DNA of 64,000 nucleotides from Simiduia agarivorans SA1 = DSM 21679 (GTDB lineage: Bacteria > Pseudomonadota > Gammaproteobacteria > Pseudomonadales > Cellvibrionaceae), in assembly GCF_000305785.2 (NCBI RefSeq), contig NC_018868.3:3580270-3644269 (forward strand), written 5' to 3'. The notes below the pieces were generated by a model that ran no database searches, was not told the origin of the DNA, and worked only from the letters and a program-made list of their open reading frames with translations. Each line of letters begins with the position of its first letter. Positions within the stretch are counted from its first letter, which is position 1. This document shows, in pieces, positions 30,160 through 59,807 of the stretch. The position numbers were made by a program, and so were the translations under genes.

Positions 30160-30231
30160 TCGTAGCTACCAAAGAACAATAAAATAGAGCCGGTGGCTGC
30201 GCCACCGCCGTTAATATTCGGGAAAACGTTG

Positions 30232-33200
30232 ATGAAAATCGCTGGAATTCAACCGCTGCTGCTCATCACCGGTATGGCAATGGCAATACCGGTTATGGCT
30301 AATAGCAACCTGGTTGACTCACCGCTGTATAAAACCGTTTCAGACACCACCCGCGATTATATAGCGAGGGCGGCTGCAGGAGATCATCTGGCGTTGGAAG
30401 GCGGTCACATGGCTCTCGATGGCCATGTGATGCCTTATATGTATTTCCAGGCCCACGAAATATTGTTTTTGGATCGCCTGGGTAAACTGCGCCATCGCAC
30501 CGTTTGGGCGACCGATGCGGTAAGCCGTGTAGATCATTGGCAAGATGCGTTTATTAAAGACGGGCTGCCAAAGGATGCTGTTATGGCAGCGCCTGGTGAG
30601 TTGGTGGGCGGTCGGCACTCGCAAATTGGTTACGAATTTATCTTGCCCGCGCTGCCCGAGTCGCAAACGGGATGGGAGCGATTTTTTACACTCAAGCCCA
30701 TGGACATGAGTGTGCCCGGCTGGCCGGAAACCACCATATATGTAGATGGCATCGCTCGCGCAGCTTTGCAACGCAAACACTTCTATTGGGCGCTGGATAA
30801 GCTTGGGGACAGCACCAGACCTCAGCGGATCACGCTCAAAAGCTTCGGGGTATTCGATCAACCACGAGGCTATCGGGAAGTGGCTGTGGTTGAACGTGAT
30901 CCACTGGCTGATGATGTTTATTGGAAGCTCCGGGTGTTGATTGAGGCGAGCACCATTCTTAATGATGACAGCGTACCCGGCCGACAGATCCGTGCGTTGA
31001 TCGATAAAGCCATCGCGGCGGTGAACTTAGAAGTGCCGCATACCCCGGTGTATCGTCAACAATTACAAGCGGCGAATCAGTTGCTCGCGGAAGGTTTTAC
31101 TGCATTAGCCAAGCTACCACAGAATAACGAGCGCCTCAGGGTAATGTTGCATGGCCATCTGGACAGTGCCTGGCGCTGGACGCTGGATCATACCGACGAC
31201 AAATTATTGCGCCTGGCGCTCAATAATCTTTATCTGATGGACCGGTTTCCCGAATACAGGTACATCTTTACCACGCCGTTTCACTACGAGCGTATTCAGG
31301 CGTTGTATCCGGACGTATTTGAGCGGATCAAAACCAAAATCAACGCGGGCCAGTGGATTGCGAACGGTTCCACATACGTGGAAACCGATCTGAACCTGCC
31401 TGGTGGTGAAAGCGTAGTGCGACAGTTTTTGTATGGGCTGGACTATTACCGCAACACCCTTGGTGTTAAAGACAACGCCCTGTTCCTACCCGATACGTTT
31501 GGTTATCCGCAGTATTTTCCTCAGATAGCGCAGGACTTCGGGTTAGACAGTCTGGTGGCTATGCGCGCAAACACTCCGGAGATTGACAGCACCCTATATC
31601 GCTGGCGTGGACTGGATGGCAGTGAGTTATTGGTGAACAGCCTGTCAACACCGGCGTGGGAATATCCCTACGAGGAAGTTATTCATGGGCGTTCGTACGA
31701 TGAAGGCCATTGGATCACAACCTATAACGCGCCTGATGCGGGACCAAGACGACTGGCGGGAACATGGGCGCAATTTAAAAATAAAGCGGAAACCGACCAG
31801 CAGTTGCTGTTGGTGGGGTGGGGCGATGGCGGTGCGGGCGGCACTGAAGATCATGTGGAATTGATCCGCCGGGTTACGGATTTGCCAGGATTCCCGCGCG
31901 TGCAGTGGACCAATATGTACGACTATCTCGAGCAGCAAAACCGGCAGCGTGAGCAATTCCCTCTGTTTGATGGTCGGATTCTGGCGCGCCCGTGGATTCA
32001 GCGCACGTTTATGCAGGCGAGTGGCATTAAACAAGCCAACCGCCGGGCCGAGCAGCGATTGCAGGAAGCGGAAGCGTTGGCCAGCTATGCGTCGCTTTCT
32101 GGTTTTGAATATCCTCAATCGGAATTTAAGCAGATCTGGAAGTCACTGTTGTTGCAGCATTTCCACGATATTGTTACCGGTATGGCGGTGCCCGAGGTGC
32201 TGGAGCGTGCGGCCAGGGATCTTGCCGATATCGAGCAGCGCGCGGCGATAATCCGGGATCAGGCGTTGGCGCACATTCTGCGCGAAGCGGATCTGGCCGA
32301 TGCGGGCCTCGTGGTTTACAACCCTGCCGCCACAGTGGCAAGCGGTGTGGTAAATCTGGGTAAGGTGGATCTCGCGGGTGTCCGCCTTCTGGATGCGAGC
32401 GGGAATGTTCTGGCGCATGAGCGTGATGCGGTGGGCAATCTTTGGGTTGACCTGCCGGATCTCGCGCCGCAGACGTTTACCCATCTTCGGTGGGGCGACA
32501 AGCCCGAAGTGTCGGCGTCGTCGGGTGAGCTCAGCGTTCGCAAAGGGGTGCTGGAAAACGCCTTGGTCCGGGTGACGTTTAATCAGAACGGTCAGATCAG
32601 TTCCTACTTCGATAAAGTGGAACAGCGAGAGCTGGTGCCCGTAGGCAAAGTGTGGAATCAGTTTATGCGTATTCCTCACCAAACCGGCGTCGCTGAACCA
32701 TTCTCTGCGCGGGCAAAGATAGATCAGGAATTTACCGGGCATTTGAGGGCGGGCATGCGCCTGAACTGGCGCAAAGGAAAAAGCCGGGTTGTCCAGCAGG
32801 TGTGGTTAGCGGCGCATTCGCGCCAGCTCCAATTTGACACGCATATCGATTGGCAGGAAGACCATCGCCTCGCCGTGGAATTCCCGCTCAATATCAACAG
32901 CCGGGAAGCGCACTATGGCATGCCTTTCGGGTTTGCCAGCCTTTCCCGGGGCGATTACGACCGCCACGCGGCAGTGGTATCGCCCATTGCGGTGCATGAA
33001 TGGGCTGATGTCTCGGAAGGTGGCTATGGTGTCGCGTTACTGGATCGTACGCGATATGCCTACAACCTGAAGTCTGGCGGCTTGCGACTTAATCTGGCCT
33101 GGGGACAGCACAAGCACGAGTATCAGGAAATGCATCATTTGCACTGGAGTGAAAGCGGCAGTGGTGATGCGGGCGGTATGCAGATGAGTTATGCCTTGCT

Positions 33201-33540
33201 GCCGCACCAGGGCGACCTGCTCCGAGGCGGGGTGATCGAAAAAGCCAAAACCTTTAACCATTCACTGCTGGTCGCCGCCAATGCGGCAGGGCGGGGGTTA
33301 GGCCGTGGATTGCCGGCACCCATGATCAAGGACTTGCCGGCGAATGTCGCCTTTCCCTCAATCAAACGCACAGAGGCGGGGGACGCCATAGCGCTCCGGT
33401 TGTATGAGACCGGTAATCAGCGCACCCGGTGGAGCCCGCCCGCCGGCGCCCGATCTGCAACGCTGGCGGAAACCCCCAGTGTAGAGAACCCGGCTCTGTT
33501 TACGCCGTTCGAGATCAAAACATTGATTGTTAATGATTGA
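30232..33540 (+). CDS. GH38 alpha-mannosidase, periplasmic
   Basis: This 1102-residue zinc-dependent retaining alpha-mannosidase is secreted to the periplasm (signal peptide ending PVMA). The metal site HGHLDSAWRW lies in the first third, the nucleophile Asp is in FLPDTFGYPQYFPQI, and the downstream HFHDIVTG motif is present. I chose the ATG at 30232 because the track's longer start is a GTG at 30193 that lacks a signal-like beginning. The enzyme likely removes mannose from oligosaccharides imported by the TonB receptor. It is the last gene of the mannose operon. The length is at the upper end for bacterial GH38 proteins. Confidence 0.93.
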   Translation: MKIAGIQPLLLITGMAMAIPVMANSNLVDSPLYKTVSDTTRDYIARAAAGDHLALEGGHMALDGHVMPYMYFQAHEILFLDRLGKLRHRTVWATDAVSRVDHWQDAFIKDGLPKDAVMAAPGELVGGRHSQIGYEFILPALPESQTGWERFFTLKPMDMSVPGWPETTIYVDGIARAALQRKHFYWALDKLGDSTRPQRITLKSFGVFDQPRGYREVAVVERDPLADDVYWKLRVLIEASTILNDDSVPGRQIRALIDKAIAAVNLEVPHTPVYRQQLQAANQLLAEGFTALAKLPQNNERLRVMLHGHLDSAWRWTLDHTDDKLLRLALNNLYLMDRFPEYRYIFTTPFHYERIQALYPDVFERIKTKINAGQWIANGSTYVETDLNLPGGESVVRQFLYGLDYYRNTLGVKDNALFLPDTFGYPQYFPQIAQDFGLDSLVAMRANTPEIDSTLYRWRGLDGSELLVNSLSTPAWEYPYEEVIHGRSYDEGHWITTYNAPDAGPRRLAGTWAQFKNKAETDQQLLLVGWGDGGAGGTEDHVELIRRVTDLPGFPRVQWTNMYDYLEQQNRQREQFPLFDGRILARPWIQRTFMQASGIKQANRRAEQRLQEAEALASYASLSGFEYPQSEFKQIWKSLLLQHFHDIVTGMAVPEVLERAARDLADIEQRAAIIRDQALAHILREADLADAGLVVYNPAATVASGVVNLGKVDLAGVRLLDASGNVLAHERDAVGNLWVDLPDLAPQTFTHLRWGDKPEVSASSGELSVRKGVLENALVRVTFNQNGQISSYFDKVEQRELVPVGKVWNQFMRIPHQTGVAEPFSARAKIDQEFTGHLRAGMRLNWRKGKSRVVQQVWLAAHSRQLQFDTHIDWQEDHRLAVEFPLNINSREAHYGMPFGFASLSRGDYDRHAAVVSPIAVHEWADVSEGGYGVALLDRTRYAYNLKSGGLRLNLAWGQHKHEYQEMHHLHWSESGSGDAGGMQMSYALLPHQGDLLRGGVIEKAKTFNHSLLVAANAAGRGLGRGLPAPMIKDLPANVAFPSIKRTEAGDAIALRLYETGNQRTRWSPPAGARSATLAETPSVENPALFTPFEIKTLIVND

Positions 33541-33847
33541 ATATGATTTGTGTGTGGCATTTTGACGATGATCTTGGCATCAGGATCATCCTCCAGAGAA
33601 GAGGTATGGATGCGTTTATTAGGAAAATAAACGGTATAAACGGTGTTGTTACGGCAGCTGGCGGCATTTTGGCACCATTGGTAACAAATTCTCTATAAGG
33701 AAAGTTTTTGCAATAAAAATGATTGTAATTGATTTTAAATGATTCATAATGGCTGTATGTTGCTTTTTGGGTGATTGCTTCTGAGAGCAGGAAAAGCAGG
33801 ACAAAAGCAGCAGCTGAGTAGCATCACAATAACTAAAGGTAAGAGAT
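33541..33847 (+). promoter_or_regulatory. Promoter region and leader of the TonB receptor gene
   Basis: A small stem GATGATC/GATCATC at 33567-33590 lies just after the GH38 stop. A possible sigma70 promoter is TTGGCA at 33669 with TATAAG at 33694 (19-bp spacer). Immediately 3' of it is the phased array described below. Confidence 0.45.
33718..33757 (+). promoter_or_regulatory. Phased 10-bp repeat array upstream of the TonB receptor
   Basis: Four consecutive ten-base units begin at 33718, 33728, 33738 and 33748. Their cores are ATGATT, TTGATT, ATGATT and ATGGCT, each preceded by an A. This is the cleanest copy of the motif. It lies 91 bases before the start codon and downstream of the best promoter candidate, which would favour repression if that promoter is right. 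Confidence 0.65.
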
Positions 33848-36800
33848 ATGCTGAAACATAAGGCGTTTAATCGCTCCCTTCTCTCCGTTGCCGTGGCGAC
33901 AGCTATGTGCAGCGTCACAGGATATGCATTGGCGCAGGAAGTGCCTGCGGACGAGGCCTTGCTAGAGGAAATCGAAGTCGTAGGTATTCGTCGTTCACTA
34001 CAGAAGTCCGCGGATGTGAAGCGCGATGGTATGGGCGTGAGTGATGTGATCACTGCGGAAGACATGGGTAAGTTCCCCGATTCCAACCTGGCAGAGTCTC
34101 TGCAGCGCGTGCCCGGTGTATCCATCAACCGTGAAAACGGTGAGGGCCAGCAGGTCACCGTGCGTGGTCTGGGGCCACGCTTTAACTTGGTACAGCTTAA
34201 TAATCGCCAGATGGCGGCAGCCAGTGGTCAGCGCAGCTTCGATTTCTCCGCAATTGCACCGGATATGATCCGTGGTATCGAGGTGCACAAAACTACCGCT
34301 GCGTCCCGCGAGACCGGTGGTATGGGCGCTACCATCAACGTGCGTACCATGCGTCCGCTGGAAGAGCCCGGCGAGCGTGCGGTGGTAAGTGCCCAGGGTA
34401 TTTATGACCAGTCTTCACACGACCCGAGTGTGACGCCCGAGTTTTCCGGCATTTATTCCAACACCTTCGATGACGACAAGTTCGGTGTCGCCGTTGCGGT
34501 AAACTACCAGGAGCGTGCCAACGGACGTAACCAAGCCCGTGGTCTTTCCTATCAGGTGGATGAGTGGGGCCAGCCAGGCACCAACTGGCAGCCGCAGGAG
34601 TTGAGCGTATCCTGGGGCTCGCATGCCAATGGCCCAGAGGCCGGCGATCGATTCACCCTGCCACGCATGGATTTTTACAATATTGTTGAGCAGGAACACA
34701 CCCGTGCTAACGCGCAGGCTGTATTCCAGTGGCGTCCGGTGGATAACATTACCGCCACGGTAGATTACAACTACTTCAACAAGGACATCGATACCGTCAC
34801 CAACTCGGCTTCTATTTGGTACAACTGGGATTGGAATCCTGCCAATACTGCAGTCTGGAGTGATGACCCGATCAAGTCGCCGTTGGTTTATGCAGAGCTG
34901 TCCAACAACCGTCCTCTGGGTGAAACCACCTTTGCAGTAAGAGAGGATCACGTACGCAATACCCTGCAGTCTTATGGTCTTAACCTGGAGTGGGAGGCTA
35001 CCGACGATCTGAGCTTCGAGCTGGACCTGAACGGTTCCACCAACGAAGTGACGCCAAACGGCGGCCGTCTGGGATCTACCGCTGATGTTGAAATGGCGGC
35101 GCTGACCCGCTCGGCAGTTGCCTATGATCGCACCGGCGACATTCCTGCAATCTATGTGACCAACCCAAATGTGGTTGCCGCCGACGTAGTGCCTCTGACT
35201 CACCGGATTACCAGCCAATTTAATGAAGGTGAAGTATCCCAGGCCAAATTCTCGGGCGAGTGGCGCTTCACTGATGAGCAGTCGTTGAACTTTGGGTTGC
35301 AGTCTACCAATCTTGATTGGTCGTCTGGCAATATCCGGGTGGAGCGTGGTCGTGGCCATTATGAGCAATTCAAAGGCGATTTTGTCAGCTTTGATGGGTT
35401 CAGTTCGTTCAATTTCATGAATGAGTTTGACGCCAGCTACGGCGACTTCGATACTATCGCGGCGCAATTGCCGGCCGGTAACGGCACAATCACGCATCCC
35501 TGGACCGGAGAGTCAGCCACACTGACTGGCGATAATTTCTACAGCACAGCGCTGAACTTCGACCTGAACCAGATGCTGGATTATCTGGCGGCGAATTACG
35601 GCGGTTATGTTGATGGAAAAGACTCGCCTCAGACCATCCTGGGTAACTGTAACTCCGTATTCTGTGCGTCTAATAAGTACAACTATGCTGATCTGCAGAA
35701 TGTATCTGAAGAGACCAAAGTCGCCTATCTGCAGTACAACCTGAATTCCAACTTGTTTGGTCTTGATTATGCTCTGCATCTGGGCTATCGCTACGAGCAG
35801 ACGGATATTACTGCCGCTTCGGCAATTACCCAGTACGACACCGTACTGTGGGTAAAATCCAATCAGCTCGAATTCCGTCCGGCCGTGGATCAGAATGGTG
35901 AGCAGGTTCAGACTTATGGCGTGCAAAAGGGAGACTACAAGTTCCATTTGCCAAGCATGAATCTGAACGTGAATCTGACAGATGATCTGGTTATGCGTCT
36001 GGCCTATGGCAAGTCCATTGCCCGGGCAAATCTTCCCGCATTGCGCGGTGGTGTGACGATCGAAACGGCAACGGTAAACGTTGTTAATCCGCAGGCTTTC
36101 ACAGGTAACCCTAACCTCGCACCATTGGAGTCGAACAACTTCGACCTCTCGCTTGAGTGGTACTATGGTGATGGTAGCTATGTGTCTGTTGCTTACTTTG
36201 ACAAAGCCATTACCCAGTTCCCGAAGACTGTTGATTCTTATCTGAATTATCCTGGTCTGGCTAACCCGGTATTTGGTCAATATGCAGATGCTGCTCGTGC
36301 TACCGGCTTGCAAAGTCTTGATGAAATTTTCACCTATGTGATTGAGAACTTTGACGGTCAGGATGGTGTGACCAACAATGGCGGTGGTACCGGTCAGGTT
36401 GTGGGCAGCGTCAATCGTGATCCGTTGGTGGATTTCAAGTACGGTCTGACAACCAATGGTGATGCCAAAAACGGTGTGGACGGTATTGAACTGGCTGTTC
36501 AGCACATGTTTGGGGAGTCTGGTTTCGGCGTCATGGCCAACTACACCTTTGTCAACTCCGATGTGGGCTATGATCCCTACACGCTGGGCGGCTCTGACGC
36601 GCTGCTGGGTGTTAGTGATTCTGCCAACCTGGTGGGCTTCTACGACAAAAACGGCATTCAGGTGCGTGTTGCCTACAACTGGCGTGATCGCTTCCTTGAC
36701 TCCCATAATCAGGAGTTGGGTCTGACTGAGCCAATTTTCGACGAAGCCTTCAAGACCATAGATCTGAACGTGAGCTACGACATTACCGACAATGCCCAGA

Positions 36801-36925
36801 TTTTCCTGAAGGGCATTAACATTACCGGTGAAGACAACCGTTCTCATGGTCGTGGGTCAAACCTGCTCATCAGTCATGAAGAGACAGGTGCCCGCTGGAT
36901 GTTGGGTGGTCGTTACCAGTTCTGA
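33848..36925 (+). CDS. TonB-dependent outer-membrane receptor
   Basis: A 1025-residue outer-membrane transporter for energised uptake of oligosaccharides. It has a signal peptide (cut after ALA-Q), a TonB-box-like region EIEVVGIRRSLQ, and a plug domain with SDVITAEDMGKFPDSNLAES, QRVPGVSI and TVRGLGPRFN. The long beta-barrel ends in the typical terminal aromatic (RYQF). This is the subtype common in gammaproteobacterial carbohydrate loci that lack SusD. The gene is monocistronic, with a terminator after it and a repeat-array promoter before it. Cargo is presumably the mannose/rhamnose glycan fragments. Confidence 0.95.
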   Translation: MLKHKAFNRSLLSVAVATAMCSVTGYALAQEVPADEALLEEIEVVGIRRSLQKSADVKRDGMGVSDVITAEDMGKFPDSNLAESLQRVPGVSINRENGEGQQVTVRGLGPRFNLVQLNNRQMAAASGQRSFDFSAIAPDMIRGIEVHKTTAASRETGGMGATINVRTMRPLEEPGERAVVSAQGIYDQSSHDPSVTPEFSGIYSNTFDDDKFGVAVAVNYQERANGRNQARGLSYQVDEWGQPGTNWQPQELSVSWGSHANGPEAGDRFTLPRMDFYNIVEQEHTRANAQAVFQWRPVDNITATVDYNYFNKDIDTVTNSASIWYNWDWNPANTAVWSDDPIKSPLVYAELSNNRPLGETTFAVREDHVRNTLQSYGLNLEWEATDDLSFELDLNGSTNEVTPNGGRLGSTADVEMAALTRSAVAYDRTGDIPAIYVTNPNVVAADVVPLTHRITSQFNEGEVSQAKFSGEWRFTDEQSLNFGLQSTNLDWSSGNIRVERGRGHYEQFKGDFVSFDGFSSFNFMNEFDASYGDFDTIAAQLPAGNGTITHPWTGESATLTGDNFYSTALNFDLNQMLDYLAANYGGYVDGKDSPQTILGNCNSVFCASNKYNYADLQNVSEETKVAYLQYNLNSNLFGLDYALHLGYRYEQTDITAASAITQYDTVLWVKSNQLEFRPAVDQNGEQVQTYGVQKGDYKFHLPSMNLNVNLTDDLVMRLAYGKSIARANLPALRGGVTIETATVNVVNPQAFTGNPNLAPLESNNFDLSLEWYYGDGSYVSVAYFDKAITQFPKTVDSYLNYPGLANPVFGQYADAARATGLQSLDEIFTYVIENFDGQDGVTNNGGGTGQVVGSVNRDPLVDFKYGLTTNGDAKNGVDGIELAVQHMFGESGFGVMANYTFVNSDVGYDPYTLGGSDALLGVSDSANLVGFYDKNGIQVRVAYNWRDRFLDSHNQELGLTEPIFDEAFKTIDLNVSYDITDNAQIFLKGINITGEDNRSHGRGSNLLISHEETGARWMLGGRYQF

Positions 36926-37000: not shown

Positions 37001-39568
37001 ATGAAATTCTTTCAATCAGCATCTTTTTTTACTGTAATCATTTCGATGCTCATAGCTTGCTCCTCTGATGGTTCCCGCTCAACATACTCAAGCGTTGCGC
37101 CTATCCTGAAATGGGAGTACTGGGCCCCCGGTGGCGGTGGGGAAATACAAAGTATTTATCTTGAGCCCAATGTAAAAAATCGCTTTTATGTGTTGAGCGA
37201 TATGGAAGGCTTGTATCGCACGGATGATGGCGGCAACTCCTACCGGTTGCTGGCGGCTGAGTTACCCCAGCTGAATGTATTTGGTATGGTCAGTGATCCG
37301 GTTAACCCAGATAGACTGTATCTCGGCACCCACCGTATGGCGCTGATCAGCGATGATGCGGGCGAAACCTGGAAGGCAATTGACGAAACCCTGAGTTATC
37401 CGATTCAGCTGATTGCGGTCAATCCAAGGAATCCAAAACATATTGTGATGGCGCTCAGCGCACCGGATATTACCGATCTGAATGAACAGCCAATGCATGT
37501 CCCTGAATATGTCCATGGGGATAAGCATCCCGGGCTGGTGTTTGTTTCGGAAGACGGCGGATTGAGTTTCGAGAAGCACTACTATGATCCGGCAACCCTG
37601 CCGGAAAAAAATGTCTGGCAATTGGTGTTCGATCCGAATCATCAGCTGCTGTACCTTGCCAGCGAACGCGGATTATTTGTTTCTGATAATGGCGGAATTA
37701 ACTGGACGAGTGCCAATATGCCAGAGGGTTATATGGCTGCGCTTGGCTTTGAAATCAGTCCAGACGGGAAGACCGCTTTTGCCATTTTCTCCAGATCCGT
37801 CACTCAATCTACCGTATTTGTGTCAGACGCAAAGGCGTTGGCACAGGGGCATGCACAATGGCATCAGGTGGATGAGTTGTTTGGGTTAGATGATCGTACA
37901 CGCCTGTCGCAGCCTGGAGAAACCCGTGTGGAATGGGACGGCGAAAGCTATACCAATCCGGGACAACGCTATGCCCGCTTGAAAATCGATCCACGCAGTG
38001 GTCAGGCTGCCTACGGTTTGGCGAATAAAGTCCGGGTGTTAATGGGGAAAACCATGAAGCACCACAACTCGTCGTTGTTTTATTCCGAGTTTGACGTCAG
38101 TAATGGCCTCCCGGAGCGGGGCAATTGGCAGCGTATTTATTACGAACAAAACAAGAAAGGCTGGCAAACATCTCAGGGCTCGGACAACTACATTCAGGTA
38201 GACAGTTTTGATTTCGTCCCTGTGCCCTGGGGGCAGCATAATAAGATCATTCTGGAAAACGGCCATGGCATCAGCTTGTTGGATATGGATGCCCCCGGAT
38301 TTCCGAAAACCGGCGGTGAAACCGTGTTGTACCAAACTGCGGTCACCCAAGCGAATGGCGCGCCGGGCCATACTACTTGGACCAATCGTGGTTTTGTAAA
38401 TACCTACAACGGTGATTTTGCCACCAGTGAGAACTATTTTGTTGCTGCGCTGAGTGATCAGGGGTTACATGAAAGCTGGGATTTCGGCAAAAGCTGGATT
38501 CGAGATTTGCGGCCTATTCCTGAAATTACTGCGTCCAAGTCTGTTGAAATACTAAAAACCGAACCGCCGGTGGTGGTGTTAGGTACTGGCTATGGCTATG
38601 GTGCAAGCGATATTCCTATGGGATTGTACGCGAAGGTTTTGGTCCACCATTCGCCGGAAGATCAGTGGCAGCATCTGGCGGGTGGGATTTCCCGTTGGAA
38701 TGGTGAAGGCGCGGAAAACCGGAACGGTTTACCTTCGGTGCCAGAGGCGTTACAAGTCCACGGCCATCCGGACGCCTGGGATTATAGAATCTGGGCTATG
38801 GCGGCAGATTCACAGGTGCCGGGCAGACTGTTTGTGGGTTTCAAAGGCCAGGGGATTTATGTGGCAGACGATGTGCCTGCACTACTGACGGGTAACGGCA
38901 ATGGCTTCCGCCGGTTGCCGCTTGGCGAAATAGAATTGCCGAAAACCAGTCTGGTGACTCATCCGGCCAAGGCGAATACCCTGTATTACCCCAATGGTAA
39001 TGAAGTATATGTGTACCGTGGCTCGCAGAATCTGAATCATCCTGGTGAACGCATTGGCGAGTTTCCTGGATTGGTTGAAGATGTGACCGCCTGGCTCAAT
39101 GAGCAAGGTTCCCTGATGCTGGCAGTGTCAGCGCGCAATGAGGCTGATGCCAGTCACAATGTGTTCGTGAGTGTCGATGAAGGTGTGCATTGGCATAAGG
39201 TATTCGATCGTGCGTCACTGAAAGCAGCAGGTGTACCTTCGTTCTTTGATACGCCAGCCTATCCTCGCGAAGATCCCCTGATGCCTTTCATGGGTGGTTT
39301 TGTCGGCTATAAAAACTGGTTGATCGTGCCGGTAGGTTCCATTCGCAATAATCTCGGTGTCTTTGCGTTGCGCCTGAATCCGGCAAAGCTGGATCAGGTA
39401 TCGATTTTTCCCATCACCGGCAAAGACAATTACCGCCACGGATACACGCGGGTGAATGAAGGCGAATTGCGTTGGGTTAAAGGTGAACCGTGGGTGGTAC
39501 ACAGCACCCGTGGAGCGGGTGTGGTGGCAGCGAGTCTGGCACCGTTGGATCAGTGGGAGCGGCAGTGA
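37001..39568 (+). CDS. GH74-like beta-propeller lipoprotein, paralogue of the secreted one
   Basis: An 855-residue lipoprotein (lipobox MLIAC, Cys20) related along its whole propeller to the catalytic part of the protein at 18251-22537. Shared landmarks are WAPGGGGEIQ against LNPGAGGQVQ, the SDMEGLY motif at residues 66-72, and the distal SDQGLHESWDFGKSW against ADNGLMESWDGGVSW (Asp486 here). Asp-box turns are frequent (TDDGGNSY, SEDGGLSF, SVDEGVHW). It lacks FN3 or CBM modules. It probably acts at the outer membrane after the secreted homologue, with different specificity. Its stop overlaps the next gene (TGATG). Confidence 0.78.
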   Translation: MKFFQSASFFTVIISMLIACSSDGSRSTYSSVAPILKWEYWAPGGGGEIQSIYLEPNVKNRFYVLSDMEGLYRTDDGGNSYRLLAAELPQLNVFGMVSDPVNPDRLYLGTHRMALISDDAGETWKAIDETLSYPIQLIAVNPRNPKHIVMALSAPDITDLNEQPMHVPEYVHGDKHPGLVFVSEDGGLSFEKHYYDPATLPEKNVWQLVFDPNHQLLYLASERGLFVSDNGGINWTSANMPEGYMAALGFEISPDGKTAFAIFSRSVTQSTVFVSDAKALAQGHAQWHQVDELFGLDDRTRLSQPGETRVEWDGESYTNPGQRYARLKIDPRSGQAAYGLANKVRVLMGKTMKHHNSSLFYSEFDVSNGLPERGNWQRIYYEQNKKGWQTSQGSDNYIQVDSFDFVPVPWGQHNKIILENGHGISLLDMDAPGFPKTGGETVLYQTAVTQANGAPGHTTWTNRGFVNTYNGDFATSENYFVAALSDQGLHESWDFGKSWIRDLRPIPEITASKSVEILKTEPPVVVLGTGYGYGASDIPMGLYAKVLVHHSPEDQWQHLAGGISRWNGEGAENRNGLPSVPEALQVHGHPDAWDYRIWAMAADSQVPGRLFVGFKGQGIYVADDVPALLTGNGNGFRRLPLGEIELPKTSLVTHPAKANTLYYPNGNEVYVYRGSQNLNHPGERIGEFPGLVEDVTAWLNEQGSLMLAVSARNEADASHNVFVSVDEGVHWHKVFDRASLKAAGVPSFFDTPAYPREDPLMPFMGGFVGYKNWLIVPVGSIRNNLGVFALRLNPAKLDQVSIFPITGKDNYRHGYTRVNEGELRWVKGEPWVVHSTRGAGVVAASLAPLDQWERQ

Positions 39569-40392
39569 TGGAGTTGTTATTTCTGTGCCCTTTATGGGGC
39601 TCTGAACAACTGCCGTTTACCGAGTTTGTCGCCAATGCCAAGGCAGCTGGCTATGACGGCGTAGAAGTGGCCTTTCCCACAGACCGGAAGGTCTGTCGGG
39701 AATGGGTGGCGGCAATCCGCGATCATGACTTGTGCTTTGTTGCGCAGCACTGGGACACGCTGACAGCGGACTATGACAAGCATGGTCCTGTTTACTTGGA
39801 CCGGCTTTCGCAGCTGGCTGAAACCGAACCCCTCTTTATTAATTCACACAGTGGCCGGGATCATTTCAGTTTTATTCAGAACCAGGCGCTGTTGGCGTCG
39901 GCAGATGGTTTGTCCCGGCGTTTGGGGCTGCCCATCTATCATGAAACCCACCGCGGCCGTTTTAACTTTGCCGCTCACGTAACACTGCAATACCTGAAGG
40001 CATTGCCGGATCTGAAAATCACCGCTGATTTCAGCCATTGGTGCTGTGTGGCCGAGTCATTATTAGCGGATCAGCCTGAGGCATTGACGTTGGCGATTGC
40101 GCGCAGCTACCACGTGCATTGTCGCGTGGGGCACAGCCAGGGCTCACAAGTCACCAGCTTGGCGCTGCCGGAATATGCTGATGCACTGGAGCAGCACCTG
40201 CAGTGGTGGGCTGCTATCACGGCGAGCGCCCGGGCCCGGGGGCAAAAACAGCTGACATTTACTTCTGAATTCGGGCCTGCCCCATACATGCTCAACGATC
40301 CTGAAACGGGGCAACCCATCGCGGATCAGTGGGCAATGAATGTGCAGGTTATGCAGTTGGTGCGTGAACGCGTTCAGAAAATTGCAGAATAA
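39568..40392 (+). CDS. Sugar isomerase/epimerase of the xylose-isomerase-like TIM-barrel superfamily
   Basis: The 274-residue cytosolic protein has the metal-ligand pattern of this superfamily: Glu in YHETHRGR (residue 126), Asp in TADFSHW, His in HVHCRVGH and Glu in FTSEFGP. I start it at the ATG at 39568, which overlaps the stop of the preceding gene; the longer frame would run inside that gene. Its 3' end overlaps the 3' end of the convergent aldose epimerase gene by 44 bases (40349-40392). The reaction is unknown. It could epimerise or isomerise a sugar released by the lipoprotein partner. Confidence 0.75.
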   Translation: MELLFLCPLWGSEQLPFTEFVANAKAAGYDGVEVAFPTDRKVCREWVAAIRDHDLCFVAQHWDTLTADYDKHGPVYLDRLSQLAETEPLFINSHSGRDHFSFIQNQALLASADGLSRRLGLPIYHETHRGRFNFAAHVTLQYLKALPDLKITADFSHWCCVAESLLADQPEALTLAIARSYHVHCRVGHSQGSQVTSLALPEYADALEQHLQWWAAITASARARGQKQLTFTSEFGPAPYMLNDPETGQPIADQWAMNVQVMQLVRERVQKIAE

Positions 40393-41314
40393 TCTCGCGT
40401 TGGTAAATTTCTCCGGGCATGAGCACAGGGCTTGGAAAGCGCGGTTCATTCACCGCGTTCGGATAGCCCTGGGCTTCCAGGCAAACCCCGCTGAAAGGGG
40501 CGAAGTGGCCGCCCAGATGGCCGGCTGTGTAGAGAAAGATACCCGGCTGGTCCGTGTGCAAGGTCATTTCCACCGTCTCGCTCAGCAAGGTGGCTGCCTT
40601 GATGGGTTCTCCTTCGGCGCCGCAGATGGGAAAGAAATGATCAAACCCGTGTCGGTCCGACCAGTCTGCTTGCCGCCAGCGCTCAATCTGCTGTCCTAAA
40701 TTGTGCGCCCGATCCAGTTTGAGTTTATCCAATCTGATGTGTTGTCCGGTGGGAATGTCACTGCGCTTTTCCAGCACTGAGTCGGCATTGAGATCCAGGC
40801 GCAGTTCACGGCAATCCCCTGCGCCCAGAGTGAGGTAGGCATGATGGGTCAGATCCACGGGGGTGGGCTTATTGGTTTTGGCCTTCAGGTGGATGTGCAA
40901 CCGGTTATCGGGTTCCAGGCGATAGTCAGTCCATGCCTCCACCCGGCCGGGAAAGCCTTGATCGCCGTCCTCAGACACTATGTGAAATTGGCAGTGCGTC
41001 GCTGACCAATCCACCAAATGCCACGCCTGATTGCTGAAATTCCGCTCACCACCATGCAAACAATGGTCGCCCAGGTTCTTCGACAGACGGTAGTGTTGCC
41101 CGCGCCATTCAAAGCTTGCGTTGGCAATCCGGTTGGCGACCCGCCCGCAAATGGCGTTGACCGCATAGATATCCGCCAGCCACTGTGCGTCCTGGCTGTA
41201 GCTCAACACCATGGGCTGCCCGTTGAACGTCATTGAGCGCAGACGGGCGCCGTGGGGCACACAAATCAATGCGAGTTGGTCGCGTGAAAGTTGAACGCCT
41301 TTTAGTGCACTCAT
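40349..41314 (-). CDS. galM: Aldose 1-epimerase (mutarotase)
   Basis: The 321-residue protein is a GalM-type mutarotase that interconverts alpha and beta anomers of free sugars. Conserved parts are NAICGRVANRIANASF at the N-terminus, GDHCLHGG and LTHHAYLTLG (the catalytic His residues), and GVCLEAQGYPNAVNEP with the catalytic Glu. Mutarotation would link inverting GH92 products and the anomer-selective kinases or isomerases in the locus. It is read divergently from the fused oxygenase gene, sharing a 111-bp promoter region that holds a repeat array. Confidence 0.9.
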   Translation of the reverse strand: MSALKGVQLSRDQLALICVPHGARLRSMTFNGQPMVLSYSQDAQWLADIYAVNAICGRVANRIANASFEWRGQHYRLSKNLGDHCLHGGERNFSNQAWHLVDWSATHCQFHIVSEDGDQGFPGRVEAWTDYRLEPDNRLHIHLKAKTNKPTPVDLTHHAYLTLGAGDCRELRLDLNADSVLEKRSDIPTGQHIRLDKLKLDRAHNLGQQIERWRQADWSDRHGFDHFFPICGAEGEPIKAATLLSETVEMTLHTDQPGIFLYTAGHLGGHFAPFSGVCLEAQGYPNAVNEPRFPSPVLMPGEIYQREIILQFSERVHAPTA

Positions 41315-41353: not shown

Positions 41354-41390
41354 AATGATTGTAAATGACTAATAATGATTTGTAAGCGGT
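41354..41390. promoter_or_regulatory. Phased 10-bp repeat array between galM and the fused oxygenase gene
   Basis: Three strong units at 41354, 41364 and 41374 have cores ATGATT, ATGACT and ATGATT, each with a leading A. A TTGATT at 41334 is almost in phase. Only about 40 bases separate the array from either start codon, so it must overlap the promoters, which fits a repressor or a close-contact activator. Confidence 0.65.
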
Positions 41391-41425
41391 GATCTTTCAT
41401 CAGTTTGCGTCAACAGAGATTCGCC

Positions 41426-43657
41426 ATGTCTGCCCGAGACTATTCACTTACCGGCCCCTGTGGTGCGGACGCCCAGCGCAACGGGCTGGCGGACGCCCAT
41501 TGGTACCAGAGCCCGGTGGATAAAGGTGCCATGCGCGCGCTGCTGGTGCGCAAGGACTGGCCGGCGATACGCGATACGCTTATTTGGTTTTCCCTCTTGG
41601 CGGTAGCCGGCTATTCCATGGTGCAGACTTGGGGCAGCGCCTGGTTTTTACTGCCTTTTTTCTTCTATGCATTTCTCTATGCTTCGGTATCAGATTCCCG
41701 TTGGCATGAATGCAGTCATGGCACCGCGTTTAAAACCGATTGGATGAACCGCGCCTTGTATGAGGTGGCGTCGTTCATGATTTTACGCGAGTCCACCACC
41801 TGGCGTTGGAGCCACATCCGCCACCACACAGACACCATTATTGTGGGGCGCGATCCGGAAATTGCCAGCCAGCGACCGGCGAGGCCGCTGGCGTTATTTT
41901 TATCGTTCTTCAAATACCCCGCCCTGGTCACTGAATTGCGCCGGATGCTGATTCATGCCTGCGGCCAGCGCGACCAGGAGGCTGCAACCTATGTGCCGGC
42001 CAGCGAATGGCCAGCGATACATTGGAAAGCGCGCGTGTATGTAGCGGTCTACGTTGGCGTAGTGGCGCTGGCGATCGTGCAGCAAAGTTGGTTGCCGCTG
42101 ATGTTCGTCGGCTTGCCATCGGTTTTTGGCACCTGGTTGATTGGTCTCTACGGTTATACCCAACACGCAGGTCTGGCAGAGAACGTTACTGATCATCGGT
42201 TGAATAGTCGCACGGTACTGATGAATCCGCTCAACCGCTTTTTGTACTGGAACATGAATTACCATGTTGAGCACCACATGTATCCGTTGGTGCCTTACCA
42301 TGCGCTGCCCGCGCTGCATGCGCTCGTGAAAGATGATTGCCCGCCTGCTTATGATGGCCTGTGGGCGGCCTGGAAAGAAATCCTTGCCGCCTGGAAGCGG
42401 CAGATAAAAGACCCCGACTATTTTGTCCGGCGGCCGCTGCCAGCGCCGGCGACACCAGCGCCAGCGTCGGAAGCGTTAGCCGTGGGTCATGACGGTTGGG
42501 TGTGTGCGGGCAATGCTGACCAGATTCAAAATGCCGATGTGCTGCGCATTGATGCGGCTGGCCATACTTATGCTATCTACCGCAACCAGGCAGGTGATTT
42601 GTTCGCCACCGAAGGGATCTGTACCCACGGTAATGCGCACCTGGCGGAGGGACTGGTCATAGGCGATGAAATAGAATGCCCGAAGCACAACGGCCGTTTT
42701 GCGCTATCCGATGGCCACGCCACAAGAGCGCCCGCCTGTGTGGCACTTGAACGCTACCCGGTAGAGCAGCGCGGTGAAAAACTATGGCTGAACACCGCGC
42801 CTTATCCGCGTATCGACAGTATCCGGCGCTGGTCGCTGCGGGTGGTTGCTGTGCGCAACCTGTCTACCTTTATTCGCGAGATCGAGCTTGAGCCCCAGCA
42901 GCTGGTACCGAAATTCAACTATCAACCCGGTGATTACTTGCGCATTTGTGTGCCTGCCTACCAATCGCTGAATCTGAATCCGGCGCAACAGCAGGGCAGC
43001 CAGTCTCAGATCTGGCAGTCCCTTGGGCTTCACACGGCAAAGGCCTTCAATCGCCAGCCCTGTATGCGTAACTACTCATTGGCGACCAACCCGGTAAAAG
43101 ATGAACGGTTGGTGTTGAATGTGCGGCTGGCATTTAACCCGAGCGCGCCAGAACTTCATCTGGGCGTGGGATCGGGCTACATGTACAGCCTCTCTGAGGG
43201 CGATGTGATTGAAGCGGTCGGACCCCAAGGCGAGTTCCGAATCAAACACACCAGAGCAGAAAAAATCTATATCGGCGGTGGTGCTGGTATGGCGCCTTTG
43301 AAGTCGCATTTGTCTTACCTGTTGGAAACCGAACAGGTCAGCCAACCAATCCGCTTTTGGTATGGTGCGCGCAATCATCAAGAGGCGTTATATCAGGATT
43401 ATTTTGAGCAGTTGGCACAAAAGTATCCCAATTTCCGTTTTAACTTGGTGCTGTCTGAACCCGAATCGGAACAGGATGCCCGCTATCCGAATGGTTTTGT
43501 ACATCAGGTAGTGGAACAGGACTTTCTTTCAAAGGGTAGCGATTGTCAGCAATACGAATTTTACCTGTGCGGCCCGCCACCGATGATGGCAGCCACGCGT
43601 AACCTGCTGCAAAAACTGGGTGTGCCTGAACAGCAAATTGCGTTTGACGAGTTCTAA
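41426..43657 (+). CDS. Three-domain oxygenase: desaturase-like di-iron domain, Rieske ferredoxin and flavin reductase fused
   Basis: A 743-residue self-sufficient oxygenase. Residues 45-330 are a membrane fatty-acid-desaturase-like domain with the three His boxes HECSH (94-98), HIRHH (130-134) and HVEHH (280-284). After a Pro/Ala linker, residues about 355-450 are a Rieske domain with CTH (399-401) and CPKH (418-421). Residues about 455-743 form a ferredoxin-reductase-like domain with RNYS, GGGAGMAP and CGPPPMM. The order matches the separate MocD, MocE and MocF proteins that demethylate the rhizopine 3-O-methyl-scyllo-inosamine. Oxidative removal of O-methyl groups from sugars is therefore a reasonable guess; lipid desaturation is the alternative. 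I use ATG 41426 rather than the TTG upstream. Confidence 0.82.
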   Translation: MSARDYSLTGPCGADAQRNGLADAHWYQSPVDKGAMRALLVRKDWPAIRDTLIWFSLLAVAGYSMVQTWGSAWFLLPFFFYAFLYASVSDSRWHECSHGTAFKTDWMNRALYEVASFMILRESTTWRWSHIRHHTDTIIVGRDPEIASQRPARPLALFLSFFKYPALVTELRRMLIHACGQRDQEAATYVPASEWPAIHWKARVYVAVYVGVVALAIVQQSWLPLMFVGLPSVFGTWLIGLYGYTQHAGLAENVTDHRLNSRTVLMNPLNRFLYWNMNYHVEHHMYPLVPYHALPALHALVKDDCPPAYDGLWAAWKEILAAWKRQIKDPDYFVRRPLPAPATPAPASEALAVGHDGWVCAGNADQIQNADVLRIDAAGHTYAIYRNQAGDLFATEGICTHGNAHLAEGLVIGDEIECPKHNGRFALSDGHATRAPACVALERYPVEQRGEKLWLNTAPYPRIDSIRRWSLRVVAVRNLSTFIREIELEPQQLVPKFNYQPGDYLRICVPAYQSLNLNPAQQQGSQSQIWQSLGLHTAKAFNRQPCMRNYSLATNPVKDERLVLNVRLAFNPSAPELHLGVGSGYMYSLSEGDVIEAVGPQGEFRIKHTRAEKIYIGGGAGMAPLKSHLSYLLETEQVSQPIRFWYGARNHQEALYQDYFEQLAQKYPNFRFNLVLSEPESEQDARYPNGFVHQVVEQDFLSKGSDCQQYEFYLCGPPPMMAATRNLLQKLGVPEQQIAFDEF

Positions 43658-43720
43658 CGGCGCACCGGTTTGCAAGTCCGGTGTGTCATTCTCTGGGTGT
43701 TCTCTCGACCCTCGTTGATA

Positions 43721-43746
43721 CCGCCCCGATGGGGCGGTTTTTTTTT
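43721..43746 (+). terminator. Rho-independent terminator after the oxygenase gene
   Basis: The stem CCGCCCC / GGGGCGG with a 3-base loop and nine Ts lies 63 bases past the stop. Confidence 0.92.
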
Positions 43747-48259: not shown

Positions 48260-48281
48260 AACATGGACCTTGTCGATGTGT

Positions 48282-54090: not shown

Positions 54091-55515
54091 TCAAAAGTGT
54101 TGTTTCAGCAGTGCCGGTCGCTCACGATGCAATTTCAGGATCAGCTCACCAAATAGGGTATTGGCCCAGGCGAACCAGTCGCGTGAATATTCCGCAGGAT
54201 TATCCTTGTCGAAGGCCTCGTGCATGAAGCCGGTTTCCGCATCGGAATTGCACAGCCACTGCAGGCACTGGTTGATTTCGGCATCGTCGTGACTGGTCAT
54301 GGCGCGCAGGATAATACCCATGGGCCAGATACGGCGCTTACCGGTATGGGGGCTGCCCTGTCCTTCAGCTGCGCTGCCGCGCAGGTAGTAGGGGTTGCTG
54401 TCGCTCAACAAAAATTTCCGGGTGTTCCGGTAAATTTCGTTGTTCACGAAGCGGTGGTCCAGATAAGGTAGCGACATGAGCGATGGAACATTGGCATCGT
54501 CCATAAACAGTGCGTTGCCAAAGCCGTCCACTTCGTAGGCGTATATTTTTCCGAAATCAAGGTGGTCGCGTACCGCGGCAGATGCAATGGCAGCTTCCAC
54601 CTGGTCCGCCATGACACGGGCGCGCTGTGCAAACGCGCGGTCGTCAAACAACGCGTCCAGCATCTCTGCCAACTGACGCAAACTGATCACCGCAAACAGA
54701 TTGCTCGGAATGAGAAACGGAAACAGGGTGGCATCATCGGACGGGCGGAACGCGCTGGCAATCAGGCCCACCGGTTTTACCGGTCGACCAGTACCTTCAA
54801 ACACCGGCGCATCAATCATGCGAGGCGAGCTGCGCACAAACCGGTAGTCGGATTCGCCATCAAAGCGCTGCTCTGCTTTGAAGGTCTGCTCGATATTGAG
54901 CATGGCCTGACGCCAGCGTTGGTCAAAGGGCGCCGTGTTGCCGGTGGCTTTCCAGTAGTGCCAGCCAAGGCGGATGGCGTAACACAGCGAGTCGATCTCC
55001 CATTTACGCTCATGAATGCCCGGTTTGGGCGATGGCTCGTCTGATGACCAGTATGACTCGCGTGTGAGGTCCTTGTAGAAAGCGTTGGCGTAAGGATCTG
55101 TCAGGATGCACGTAGTCTGACGATTGATCAGCCCCTGCATGAGCAGATCAATTTGCCGGTCCTGATTCACAAAAGGCAAATAGGGCCACACCTGGGCGGT
55201 GCTGTCTCTGAGCCACATGGCATCAATATCGCCGGTGATAATAAATGTATCGGGGCGGCCATCGATCATTTCGAAATCAACGGTGGTGTCGAGCGTATTG
55301 GGCAGGCAGTTGACAAAGAGTTGTTTGAGTTTGGGAGAGGCAATGGTTCCGGCCACATCTGCCAATGCTTGTTCCAGCGCGAGGCTGTGATAAGTGCGTG
55401 CGGCAGGCGCGGGGCGTCGCAGTGGAAACGCTTGGCTAGGTGCCGCACCCAGACGACTACTGGTCAGTGCAGCGCCGGACGCGGCCAGGGAAACGAACTG
55501 TCGGCGGTTGATCAT
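54091..55515 (-). CDS. GH125 exo-alpha-1,6-mannosidase, Tat-type signal
   Basis: A 474-residue GH125 enzyme; characterised members are inverting exo-alpha-1,6-mannosidases. Strong family features are TGDIDAMWLRDSTAQVWPY (substrate pocket), KWEIDSLCYAIRLGW (acid region) and YLDHRFVNNEIYRNTRKF near the end. The N-terminus (NRRQFVSLAASGAAL) has twin arginines and a hydrophobic core, so export by Tat is likely. Together with GH92 and GH38 it shows that an alpha-mannose backbone or branch is being dismantled. It lies 29 bp after pgi on the same strand. Confidence 0.93.
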   Translation of the reverse strand: MINRRQFVSLAASGAALTSSRLGAAPSQAFPLRRPAPAARTYHSLALEQALADVAGTIASPKLKQLFVNCLPNTLDTTVDFEMIDGRPDTFIITGDIDAMWLRDSTAQVWPYLPFVNQDRQIDLLMQGLINRQTTCILTDPYANAFYKDLTRESYWSSDEPSPKPGIHERKWEIDSLCYAIRLGWHYWKATGNTAPFDQRWRQAMLNIEQTFKAEQRFDGESDYRFVRSSPRMIDAPVFEGTGRPVKPVGLIASAFRPSDDATLFPFLIPSNLFAVISLRQLAEMLDALFDDRAFAQRARVMADQVEAAIASAAVRDHLDFGKIYAYEVDGFGNALFMDDANVPSLMSLPYLDHRFVNNEIYRNTRKFLLSDSNPYYLRGSAAEGQGSPHTGKRRIWPMGIILRAMTSHDDAEINQCLQWLCNSDAETGFMHEAFDKDNPAEYSRDWFAWANTLFGELILKLHRERPALLKQHF

Positions 55516-57185: not shown

Positions 57186-58121
57186 TTACTGATCGGTCGG
57201 ATGGGTATCCGTAGAGTGTTGGAGGAACCAATGGTAGATGTCTTCGCCGGCATACACCCTGCGCCAAACATCGTGTGCCATATCGGCGTGAATGGTAAAG
57301 CGTATATCGGCGCTGCTGTTGTCGCGCAGCAGATTGAGGCCGGGATAAAAATGCTGAATGGGAATCACCGGGTCCATGCCGCCGGCAAAACACCAGACCG
57401 GAACTTGTGCCTGGCTGATCGATGTCATGAGAGACGGGTGCCCCCAGCCGGCGACGGGCGCCACAGCAGCAAAAGTTTCCGGATATTTGCTGGCCATGTA
57501 CCAGCTGCCGAAGCCGCCATAACTCAAGCCTGTGAGATAGGTTTTGTTTTTATCCACTCGCAGCTTGCGCCGGGTTTCAGACAGCATTTCCAATAGGTCT
57601 TTTTCGATGGTCTCCCAGCCCTTGGGTAGCAGCGGATCTATTTCGCTCATACTGTCAGTCGCGGGATAGGAAATCATCGGTTGCGTTAACCGCTGTGGCT
57701 TTTCTCGCTCGGGAGTGCCGTCGTACTGGCGACGAGGGATCTGATCGAATGTTCGCTCGTTGAAATAGTTGTTGGTACTGGCAAAATCAAACATTGGTAG
57801 TTGCGGGGCAATAATAACAAACGGCAAGTTTCGTTTTTGCACCCAGGCCTCATAAAGCGGGCCGTGTGTCAGTACGTAGTCGAGCTCTGATTTTCCGTTC
57901 CCCCGTTCGCCGTTGCCGTGCAGAAACAGGATTGTGGGCCAGCGTTTGTCAGGCTGTGCGTTGTAACCTTCAGGCAGGTATACAAAGTAATCCCGCTCGC
58001 TGCCGTCCAGTTGGCTGGTCAGCGACCAGCGTTCCAGTCGGGCTGGATCTTCCGCAGGCTCACAAGCTGACAGTGCCCATGCAGTCAAAGCGCACAATAA
58101 CGCGTTAAGCGGCTTGGTCAT
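57186..58121 (-). CDS. Carbohydrate esterase-like lipoprotein (alpha/beta-hydrolase)
   Basis: A 311-residue lipoprotein with lipobox ALSAC. It follows the phospholipase/carboxylesterase (PHB-depolymerase-like) fold: FLHGNGERGNG, nucleophile elbow TGLSYGGFGSW, Asp in FAGGMDPVIP and His in DMAHDVWRRVY. I start at ATG 58121, which overlaps the kinase stop by ATGA; the longer frame lies within the kinase gene. Deacetylation or feruloyl-type de-esterification of the glycan is likely, but the acyl group is unknown. Confidence 0.82.
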   Translation of the reverse strand: MTKPLNALLCALTAWALSACEPAEDPARLERWSLTSQLDGSERDYFVYLPEGYNAQPDKRWPTILFLHGNGERGNGKSELDYVLTHGPLYEAWVQKRNLPFVIIAPQLPMFDFASTNNYFNERTFDQIPRRQYDGTPEREKPQRLTQPMISYPATDSMSEIDPLLPKGWETIEKDLLEMLSETRRKLRVDKNKTYLTGLSYGGFGSWYMASKYPETFAAVAPVAGWGHPSLMTSISQAQVPVWCFAGGMDPVIPIQHFYPGLNLLRDNSSADIRFTIHADMAHDVWRRVYAGEDIYHWFLQHSTDTHPTDQ

Positions 58122-59536: not shown

Positions 59537-59807
59537 GCGGGCATCCTAATTATTGTTTCTGGGCGTAACGCTAACACCATTATTCCGTCAAAACAATCAT
59601 TGAGTGATCACTAATGCTTGTTAATGATTTTTATGGGTGTGGGCGATAAGATCTATTTTGGTCTTTAAAAACAAAGGTATGGCGCGATTGTTGGCGATTT
59701 TGCCATTCATCCAAATAATCAATATAAATCAATTGCGCTCATAAATTATCAGTGACATAATGCCTGCAGATTTATCCATGATATTAATAACGAGTTCAGA
59801 GTCCGCT
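59537..59807. promoter_or_regulatory. Divergent rhamnose promoter region with a phased 10-bp repeat array
   Basis: Units at 59603, 59613 and 59623 carry GTGATC, ATGCTT and ATGATT, each preceded by an A and ten bases apart; a slightly displaced ATGGGT follows. An inverted copy AATCATTG lies at 59595-59602. The rest is AT-rich with no other clear element. The region serves rhaK to the left and the aldolase/dehydrogenase to the right. Confidence 0.6.

Follow-up and report, generated by a model that had tools for sequence, protein, structure and literature searches.

The locus examined here, in Simiduia agarivorans SA1 = DSM 21679, raises the question of what a single protein carrying its own oxygenase, ferredoxin and reductase does beside genes for glycan use. 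The whole stretch of DNA that was analysed, 64,000 nucleotides long, is called the window. Many algal, bacterial and plant sugars bear methyl ethers, and these hinder ordinary sugar catabolism. An earlier note on this DNA had proposed that the protein unites the counterparts of MocD, MocE and MocF of the rhizopine system and demethylates a sugar, leaving both mannose and rhamnose open. Our searches of open-access literature found no study of the fusion.

One chain with an oxygenase, a ferredoxin and a reductase

The gene and its parts lie as follows.

41426..43657, + strand: fusion oxygenase, 743 aa from ATG, reading frame open throughout
41642..42367, + strand: MocD-type membrane diiron (FA_desaturase) domain, residues 73-314 (Pfam, E 7e-36), with histidine boxes H94/H98, H130/H133/H134 and H280/H283/H284, plus H247
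42497..42760, + strand: Rieske [2Fe-2S] domain, residues 358-445, with C399/H401 and C418/H421 (Pfam, E 1.7e-18)
42818..43654, + strand: NqrF-like FAD/NADH reductase domain, residues 465-743
43720..43738, + strand: terminator-like hairpin 3' of the fusion, weak (3 terminator-like sites against 3.0 expected)

As the earlier note had claimed, the oxygenase, ferredoxin and reductase follow one another in a single ORF, and all three Pfam domains scored above their own cut-offs. FA_desaturase (PF00487) reached 124.7 bits against 29.7, which places the first domain in that superfamily, and NAD_binding_1 covered residues 616-725 (E 2.4e-19). With a TTG start at 41405 instead, the protein would be 750 aa long. 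The best 120 proteins listed, the window protein included, all carried the three domains by eye and measured 743-807 aa; this shared make-up and length rule out a frameshift or chance joining, and the fusion in one chain is confirmed as real. The histidine boxes and the Rieske Cys/His pairs were invariant in the 59 aligned fusions (59/59), and the diiron histidines were also kept in all four split MocD proteins. No P450 domain appeared among the Pfam matches of the protein. Against the PDB, the desaturase domain sequence gave no match better than E 0.69, and the structure-search lists were filled with reductase-domain matches. The next gene after the fusion and its hairpin encodes triosephosphate isomerase.

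The oxygenase and ferredoxin, and not the reductase, are of the Moc type

To place the domains, we compared them with four split MocD proteins (two from Rhizobium, the others from Sinorhizobium and Acidiphilium). The oxygenase domain was 52.6%, 53.5%, 52.6% and 50.6% identical to these over 344 aligned residues, and 29% identical to another plasmid-borne 'fatty acid desaturase', which is paired with a ferredoxin of its own. The Rieske domain was 46% identical to MocE of R. etli; with the MocE_fam_FeS model (TIGR02377) the fusion scored 107.5 bits, under the subfamily cut-off of 136.15. These values bear out the proposed kinship to MocD and MocE. The third proposed counterpart had to be given up: phmmer found no match at E 10 between the fusion and the MocF proteins of R. 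etli, Acidiphilium and Rhizobium Q54, and the reductase module is NqrF-like, not of the MocF type. With the NqrF model TIGR01941 it scored 227 bits against a cut-off of 295 and covered only model positions 126-403 of 405, which falls short of an equivalog assignment. An exact copy of MocDEF was thus rejected, since the reductase comes from a different family.

A tree built from 89 desaturase domains separated the 85 fusions from the four split MocD (support 100); the sister-group placement of the two was seen with the tree rooted on MocD. A first tree had taken in two faulty rows (L060 and L065, in which the fusion is partial or misread), which were dropped from the second, and there the fusion/split label still required one change. 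This fits a single fusion event that would have been followed by wide spread. The window protein clustered with those of three genomes, G003, G467 and G462 (support 99), and next with that of G485 (97). G003 is a further species of the window's genus, with a fusion 67% identical to the window protein, and G467 and G462 share one other genus.

The fusion is widespread and patchy

A contig scan returned at least 590 matching stretches, of which at least 582 encode a relative of the query, single-domain relatives perhaps included. Among the best 80 of these relatives, all 80 contig loci aligned almost full length to the fusion, which is widespread and not confined to the window locus. According to the submitters' titles, from which the phylum ranks were taken and many of which denote MAGs, these loci belong mostly to Verrucomicrobiota, Acidobacteriota and Bacteroidota, with Chloroflexota, Kiritimatiellota, Planctomycetota, Lentisphaerota and one Pseudomonadota bin also present. 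At E 1e-100, the fusion was present in 2 of the 4 genomes from the genus, in 5 of 144 from the family and in 1 of 369 sampled from the class, each count taking in the window's own genome. This patchy occurrence suggests gain by transfer or repeated loss.

Neighbouring genes argue against a lipid substrate

The names 'fatty acid desaturase' and 'NADH:ubiquinone reductase subunit F' occur among the database names of the best 120 listed proteins. A fatty-acid desaturase or hydrocarbon hydroxylase, as some of these names imply, would agree with the FA_desaturase match and with a passage of PMC5132102 that likens mocDEF to aromatic-hydrocarbon oxygenases. We surveyed the genes around the fusions, called by our own script, which makes errors in GC-rich DNA; 150 of the 151 neighbours at +1 and −1 were scanned (77 at +1 and 73 at −1, one long L067 gene being left out), as were 78 of 140 genes that had been drawn from 285 lying farther away. 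In the best 25 of 97 families at +1 and the best 25 of 101 at −1, the sole possible lipid family, for both sets jointly, was one AMP-binding enzyme. For none of the 54 fusion copies did the listed matches, compared by eye, place a ketoacyl synthase (PF00109) within 10 kb. The earlier note had held that homologues lying mainly beside fatty-acid genes would speak against a sugar role; the neighbour survey did not find them so placed, with G485 a partial exception in that, by eye, sugar genes flank its fusion on one side and acyl-CoA-metabolism-like genes on the other, from 2.6 kb off. A lipid or hydrocarbon role was therefore set aside as the main reading on the neighbours of relatives, and we regard it as very improbable. 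The neighbour families, together with the enrichment of rhamnose genes described below, support the preference for a sugar over a lipid, and judging from these sequences the fusion very probably acts on a sugar or sugar-like compound.

By eye, the G485 region (L094, L095) also holds LacI regulators, two Gfo/Idh/MocA-like genes and one GMC-like gene beside the fusion, a set which we take to be reminiscent of 3-keto-sugar catabolism. In three Flavobacteria (L044, L046, L055), a creatininase-family gene and an aldo/keto reductase gene occupied positions +1 and +2 of the fusion.

Fifteen of the 85 loci have members of the URO-D methyltransferase family (MtaA/CmuA-like, under cut-off) no more than 10 kb from the fusion (L006, L007, L017, L019, L023, L025, L035, L042, L060, L062, L063, L067, L068, L076 and L083); these perhaps represent an oxygen-free handling of methyl groups in the same genomes. 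These genes, whose family includes methyl transferases, bear on the idea that the target is no methyl ether and that the enzyme hydroxylates the sugar itself, for instance at the C6 methyl of rhamnose. Unactivated methyl groups, of which rhamnose has one, are indeed hydroxylated by membrane diiron enzymes with this fold; both the recurrence of the URO-D family and the MocD precedent, a methyl ether, weigh against this idea, and we consider it distinctly improbable.

A triple direct repeat joins the fusion to a receptor and a rhamnose operon

The following genes and repeats of the window were considered.

26260..28563, + strand: GH92 alpha-mannosidase
30193..33540, + strand: GH38 alpha-mannosidase
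33523..33547, + strand: 25-bp form of the repeat, 1 mismatch, at the GH38 gene end and upstream of the TonB receptor (G003 has one in the corresponding position)
33719..33748, + strand: 30-bp repeat upstream of the TonB receptor (similar site in G003)
33848..36925, + strand: TonB-dependent receptor (TIGR01782 over cut-off)
37001..39568, + strand: VPS10/BNR-repeat protein, its stop overlapping the barrel gene ATG by one base
39568..40392, + strand: xylose-isomerase-like TIM-barrel protein, recurrent partner of the fusion
40349..41314, − strand: aldose 1-epimerase, divergent from the fusion
41355..41384, + strand: 30-bp repeat, a triple direct one, between the genes for the aldose epimerase and the fusion (G003, G467 and G462 have similar sites)
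54091..55515, − strand: GH125 alpha-mannosidase
58118..59536, − strand: FGGY sugar kinase, presumed rhamnulokinase from its position only
59604..59633, + strand: 30-bp repeat between the FGGY kinase and the L-rhamnose operon
59718..59742, − strand: 25-bp form, inverted weaker copy, 2 mismatches, before the rhamnose operon
59760..61907, + strand: bifunctional rhamnulose-1-phosphate aldolase/dehydrogenase (NF006189 and TIGR02632 over cut-off)
61920..63215, + strand: L-rhamnose isomerase (TIGR02629 over cut-off)

The divergent aldose epimerase was where the earlier note had seen it, and its statement that the fusion and the glycan genes share a repeat was upheld. The triple repeat RTGATNNNWAWTGNNTNNWAATGATTNNTA, a 30-bp pattern drawn from the window's own sites, occurred with 0 mismatches at 33719, 41355 and 59604, and at two further places with 3 mismatches (shuffles gave 0.03 expected). 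When up to 2 mismatches were allowed, the 4.3-Mb genome contained only the three sites before the TonB receptor, the fusion and the rhamnose operon, and the reversed pattern had 0 matches in the whole genome. A 25-bp form, written after inspection of the relatives' promoters, had two sites in 40 kb of G467, both matching perfectly, one ahead of the fusion and one ahead of the rhamnose operon; simulations of three regions, 40 for each, gave no match to it. In G462 it preceded the rhamnose operon with 0 mismatches. Even with 2 mismatches allowed, the site at the G462 fusion fitted neither the 30-bp nor the 25-bp form, and it matched only a looser one that was written post hoc. No repeat was found in the G485 region. 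The fusion, the TonB receptor and the rhamnose operon thus apparently form a co-regulated set, as judged from these promoter repeats. Since the barrel ATG overlaps the stop of the VPS10 gene, the barrel gene would be part of the receptor transcript, which would bring barrel and fusion into one regulon. A DeoR-type gene lies near the rhamnose operon in G467, with a 79% identical ortholog 6.3 kb past the window end, and we infer that this DeoR-family protein may be the regulator that binds the repeat.

In G003 the gene order was as in the window: mannose-isomerase-like gene, GH92, transporter, GH38, TonB receptor, VPS10/BNR, barrel, aldose epimerase (minus strand) and fusion. The epimerase-fusion pair of G467 and G462 lay between GH38 and the rhamnose kinase, aldolase and isomerase genes, which the DeoR-type gene adjoins, and the barrel gene was not found at these two fusion regions. 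A GH127-like protein of the window (46565-48388, minus strand), under the Pfam cut-off at 20.4 against 24.9 bits, has homologues in the matching regions of G003, G467 and G462. About 5.4 kb beyond the window end, directly before the DeoR-type regulator, there is a PhyH-type gene (Fe(II)/2-oxoglutarate oxygenase family; L142:6355-7233); G467 and G462 likewise have such a gene close to their rhamnose genes, L066 and L052 have one at +1 of the fusion, and the gene beyond the window end possibly encodes a second sugar oxygenase. Beyond the regulator follows a row (L142:8270-15251) of SapC, Cupin_8, ASPIC/UnbV FG-GAP, a vanadium-haloperoxidase-like protein and a sulfatase.

The barrel gene, which the earlier note had passed over, accompanied 37 of the 85 fusions, the window's among them. 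Its family was present in one of three split mocDEF neighbourhoods compared, that of Acidiphilium, where it follows mocDEF (E 4e-22). Four barrel proteins gave no NCBIfam match, nothing in the PDB matched their sequences better than E 0.54, and the fold matched many sugar epimerases with tied Z; the attempt to read a substrate from the barrel sequence was dropped on the first two results. IolE-type proteins are among those that share the barrel fold. A demethylase of methyl-inositols or other cyclitol ethers, acting as MocDEF would on rhizopine, would also agree with MocDEF being the closest characterised kin and with the inositol genes near split mocDEF; in Rhizobium Q54 the mocDEF genes lie near a rhizopine-binding protein and inositol 2-dehydrogenase. 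However, the 20 window ORFs scanned with Pfam included no rhizopine or inositol catabolic gene and the shared repeat points toward rhamnose, which makes this reading improbable.

Rhamnose genes recur beside the fusion across phyla

Genome-wide rates were obtained from 50 of the 80 loci, picked for long flanks, which comprised 50 genomes, 222.5 Mb and 54 fusion copies. Assuming an even genome spread, RhaT within 10 kb of the fusion was expected for 0.38 copies and found for 5 of 54 (P 5e-5), and RhaM-like genes were expected for 0.35 and found for 5 (P 3e-5). Together, one or the other accompanied 10 of the 54 copies, in 9 genomes, against about 0.7 expected on the same assumption. Fragments of one RhaT gene were merged by eye for these counts. 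All five RhaT neighbours were over the family cut-off and four of the five RhaM-like neighbours were below theirs. Fucose-type isomerases, taken as a comparison sugar family, were mildly enriched too (3 of 54 copies, 0.52 expected, P 0.016), so part of the rhamnose signal reflects a general clustering of sugar genes.

In the full set, 17 of the 85 loci had some rhamnose gene (RhaT, RhaM-like, RhaA/RhaI, aldolase or GH78) within 10 kb; the other 68 had none at that distance, some through a contig end. G462 and G467 belong to the 17 and the window does not, its own rhamnose operon being 16 kb away. On the tree this trait required 13 changes (a count without shuffle comparison), which indicates that the rhamnose neighbourhood is not one inherited cluster. 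The suggestion of the earlier note to look for co-occurrence with both rhamnose and alpha-mannosidase genes thus gave 17 loci for the former and 6 of 85, with GH38 within 10 kb, for the latter.

These counts bear on the proposal that the substrate is a methylated mannose, e.g. 3-O-methyl-mannose of N-glycans, and that the link with rhamnose is incidental. The window locus itself offers GH92, GH38, GH125 and the mannose-isomerase-like gene, and two of the six GH38 loci are Bacteroidota MAGs (L048 and L054, the latter with the order barrel-fusion-GH38-GH92). In addition, a 13-bp core of the repeat had 9 matches in the window against 2.18 expected, some of them ahead of 18251 and of 22830, where the gene run holding GH92 starts. 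These weaker matches imply that control may reach the mannosidases, and the regulon may be wider than its three sites. Nevertheless, the full 30-bp repeat stands only at the receptor, the fusion and the rhamnose operon, and four of the six GH38 loci come from one lineage, as against rhamnose genes recurring in 17 loci. We therefore regard mannose as an unlikely substrate; the regulon and the cross-phylum neighbours favour rhamnose.

A proposed route for O-methyl-L-rhamnose

The kinship to MocD and MocE, the shared repeat and the recurrent neighbours together led us to read the fusion as a sugar O-demethylase. Taken as a whole, the reading we prefer, to which we give about an even chance, is that of an NADH-driven, self-sufficient membrane diiron monooxygenase of the MocD family, with O-methyl-L-rhamnose as its most likely substrate. 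By analogy with MocDEF, O-demethylation is the probable reaction; that the substrate is O-methyl-L-rhamnose we put slightly under even.

In the proposed mechanism, the glycan pieces would enter via the co-regulated TonB receptor, and the substrate would be a cytosolic O-methylated sugar, most likely O-methyl-L-rhamnose released from the glycan. Electrons would pass from NADH to FAD in the NqrF-like domain, and from there to the Rieske cluster and the diiron site, an order that we infer from MocDEF and ordinary diiron chemistry. Oxygen activated at the diiron site would hydroxylate the methoxy carbon, and the resulting hemiacetal would fall apart into formaldehyde and a sugar with a free hydroxyl. 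The demethylated sugar may then pass to the aldose epimerase and the barrel protein, a putative isomerase or epimerase, and join the co-regulated route of L-rhamnose isomerase, kinase and aldolase. The genome encodes a formaldehyde dehydrogenase of the glutathione-dependent kind (642 bits, the cut-off being 543.95), which fits formaldehyde release and lends it weak support, such genes being common.

What the data add are the triple repeat at the fusion, TonB receptor and rhamnose operon, the RhaT/RhaM-like enrichment and the barrel in 37 of 85 loci. From these we suggest, tentatively and a shade less firmly than the substrate, that a large family of one-chain, NADH-driven diiron demethylases in some eight phyla opens O-methylated rhamnose and related methoxy sugars of natural glycans with a dedicated barrel enzyme, by an oxygen-dependent route that does without P450, under a three-promoter rhamnose regulon in the window's genus. 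If so, the recurrent barrel would be a second enzyme of the same pathway, and many database entries named 'fatty acid desaturase' or 'NADH:ubiquinone reductase subunit F' would be corrected.

Comparison with known systems

The nearest known system is MocDEF of rhizobia. Bahar is said to have put forward, in 1998, a model of MocDEF as a rhizopine demethylase. PMC10107442 gives mocDEF a part in rhizopine catabolism and describes the mocD promoter as inducible by the rhizopine scyllo-inosamine. The fusion shares with it the MocD-type oxygenase (about 53% identity) and the MocE-type Rieske protein (46%), in the same order, and a TIM-barrel gene adjoins some mocDEF copies as well, both in the neighbourhoods compared here and according to PMC3538637 and PMC5132102. 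It differs in being one ORF where the rhizobia have three separate genes, in an NqrF-like reductase where they have the MocF type, and in the rhamnose genes alongside it where they have inositol and rhizopine genes. By its sequence, the fusion is thus a member of the MocD family and not the MocDEF complex as defined. Compared with NqrF of the Na+-translocating NADH:quinone reductase, it has a Rieske domain in the place of the N-terminal part.

In marine Flavobacteriia, the 6-O-methyl-D-galactose demethylase is, according to PMC10033563, a multi-protein P450 system with a reductase and a ferredoxin. The net reaction that we propose for the fusion would be the same as in that account, methoxy sugar + O2 -> sugar + formaldehyde, but the P450 enzyme depends on haem, whereas the fusion would use a diiron centre in an unrelated catalytic domain and a single polypeptide. 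If the proposal is right, the fusion would be a simple one-component biocatalyst and a single-gene alternative to the P450 system in many polysaccharide-degrading lineages, and would help to explain how methoxy carbon is recycled.
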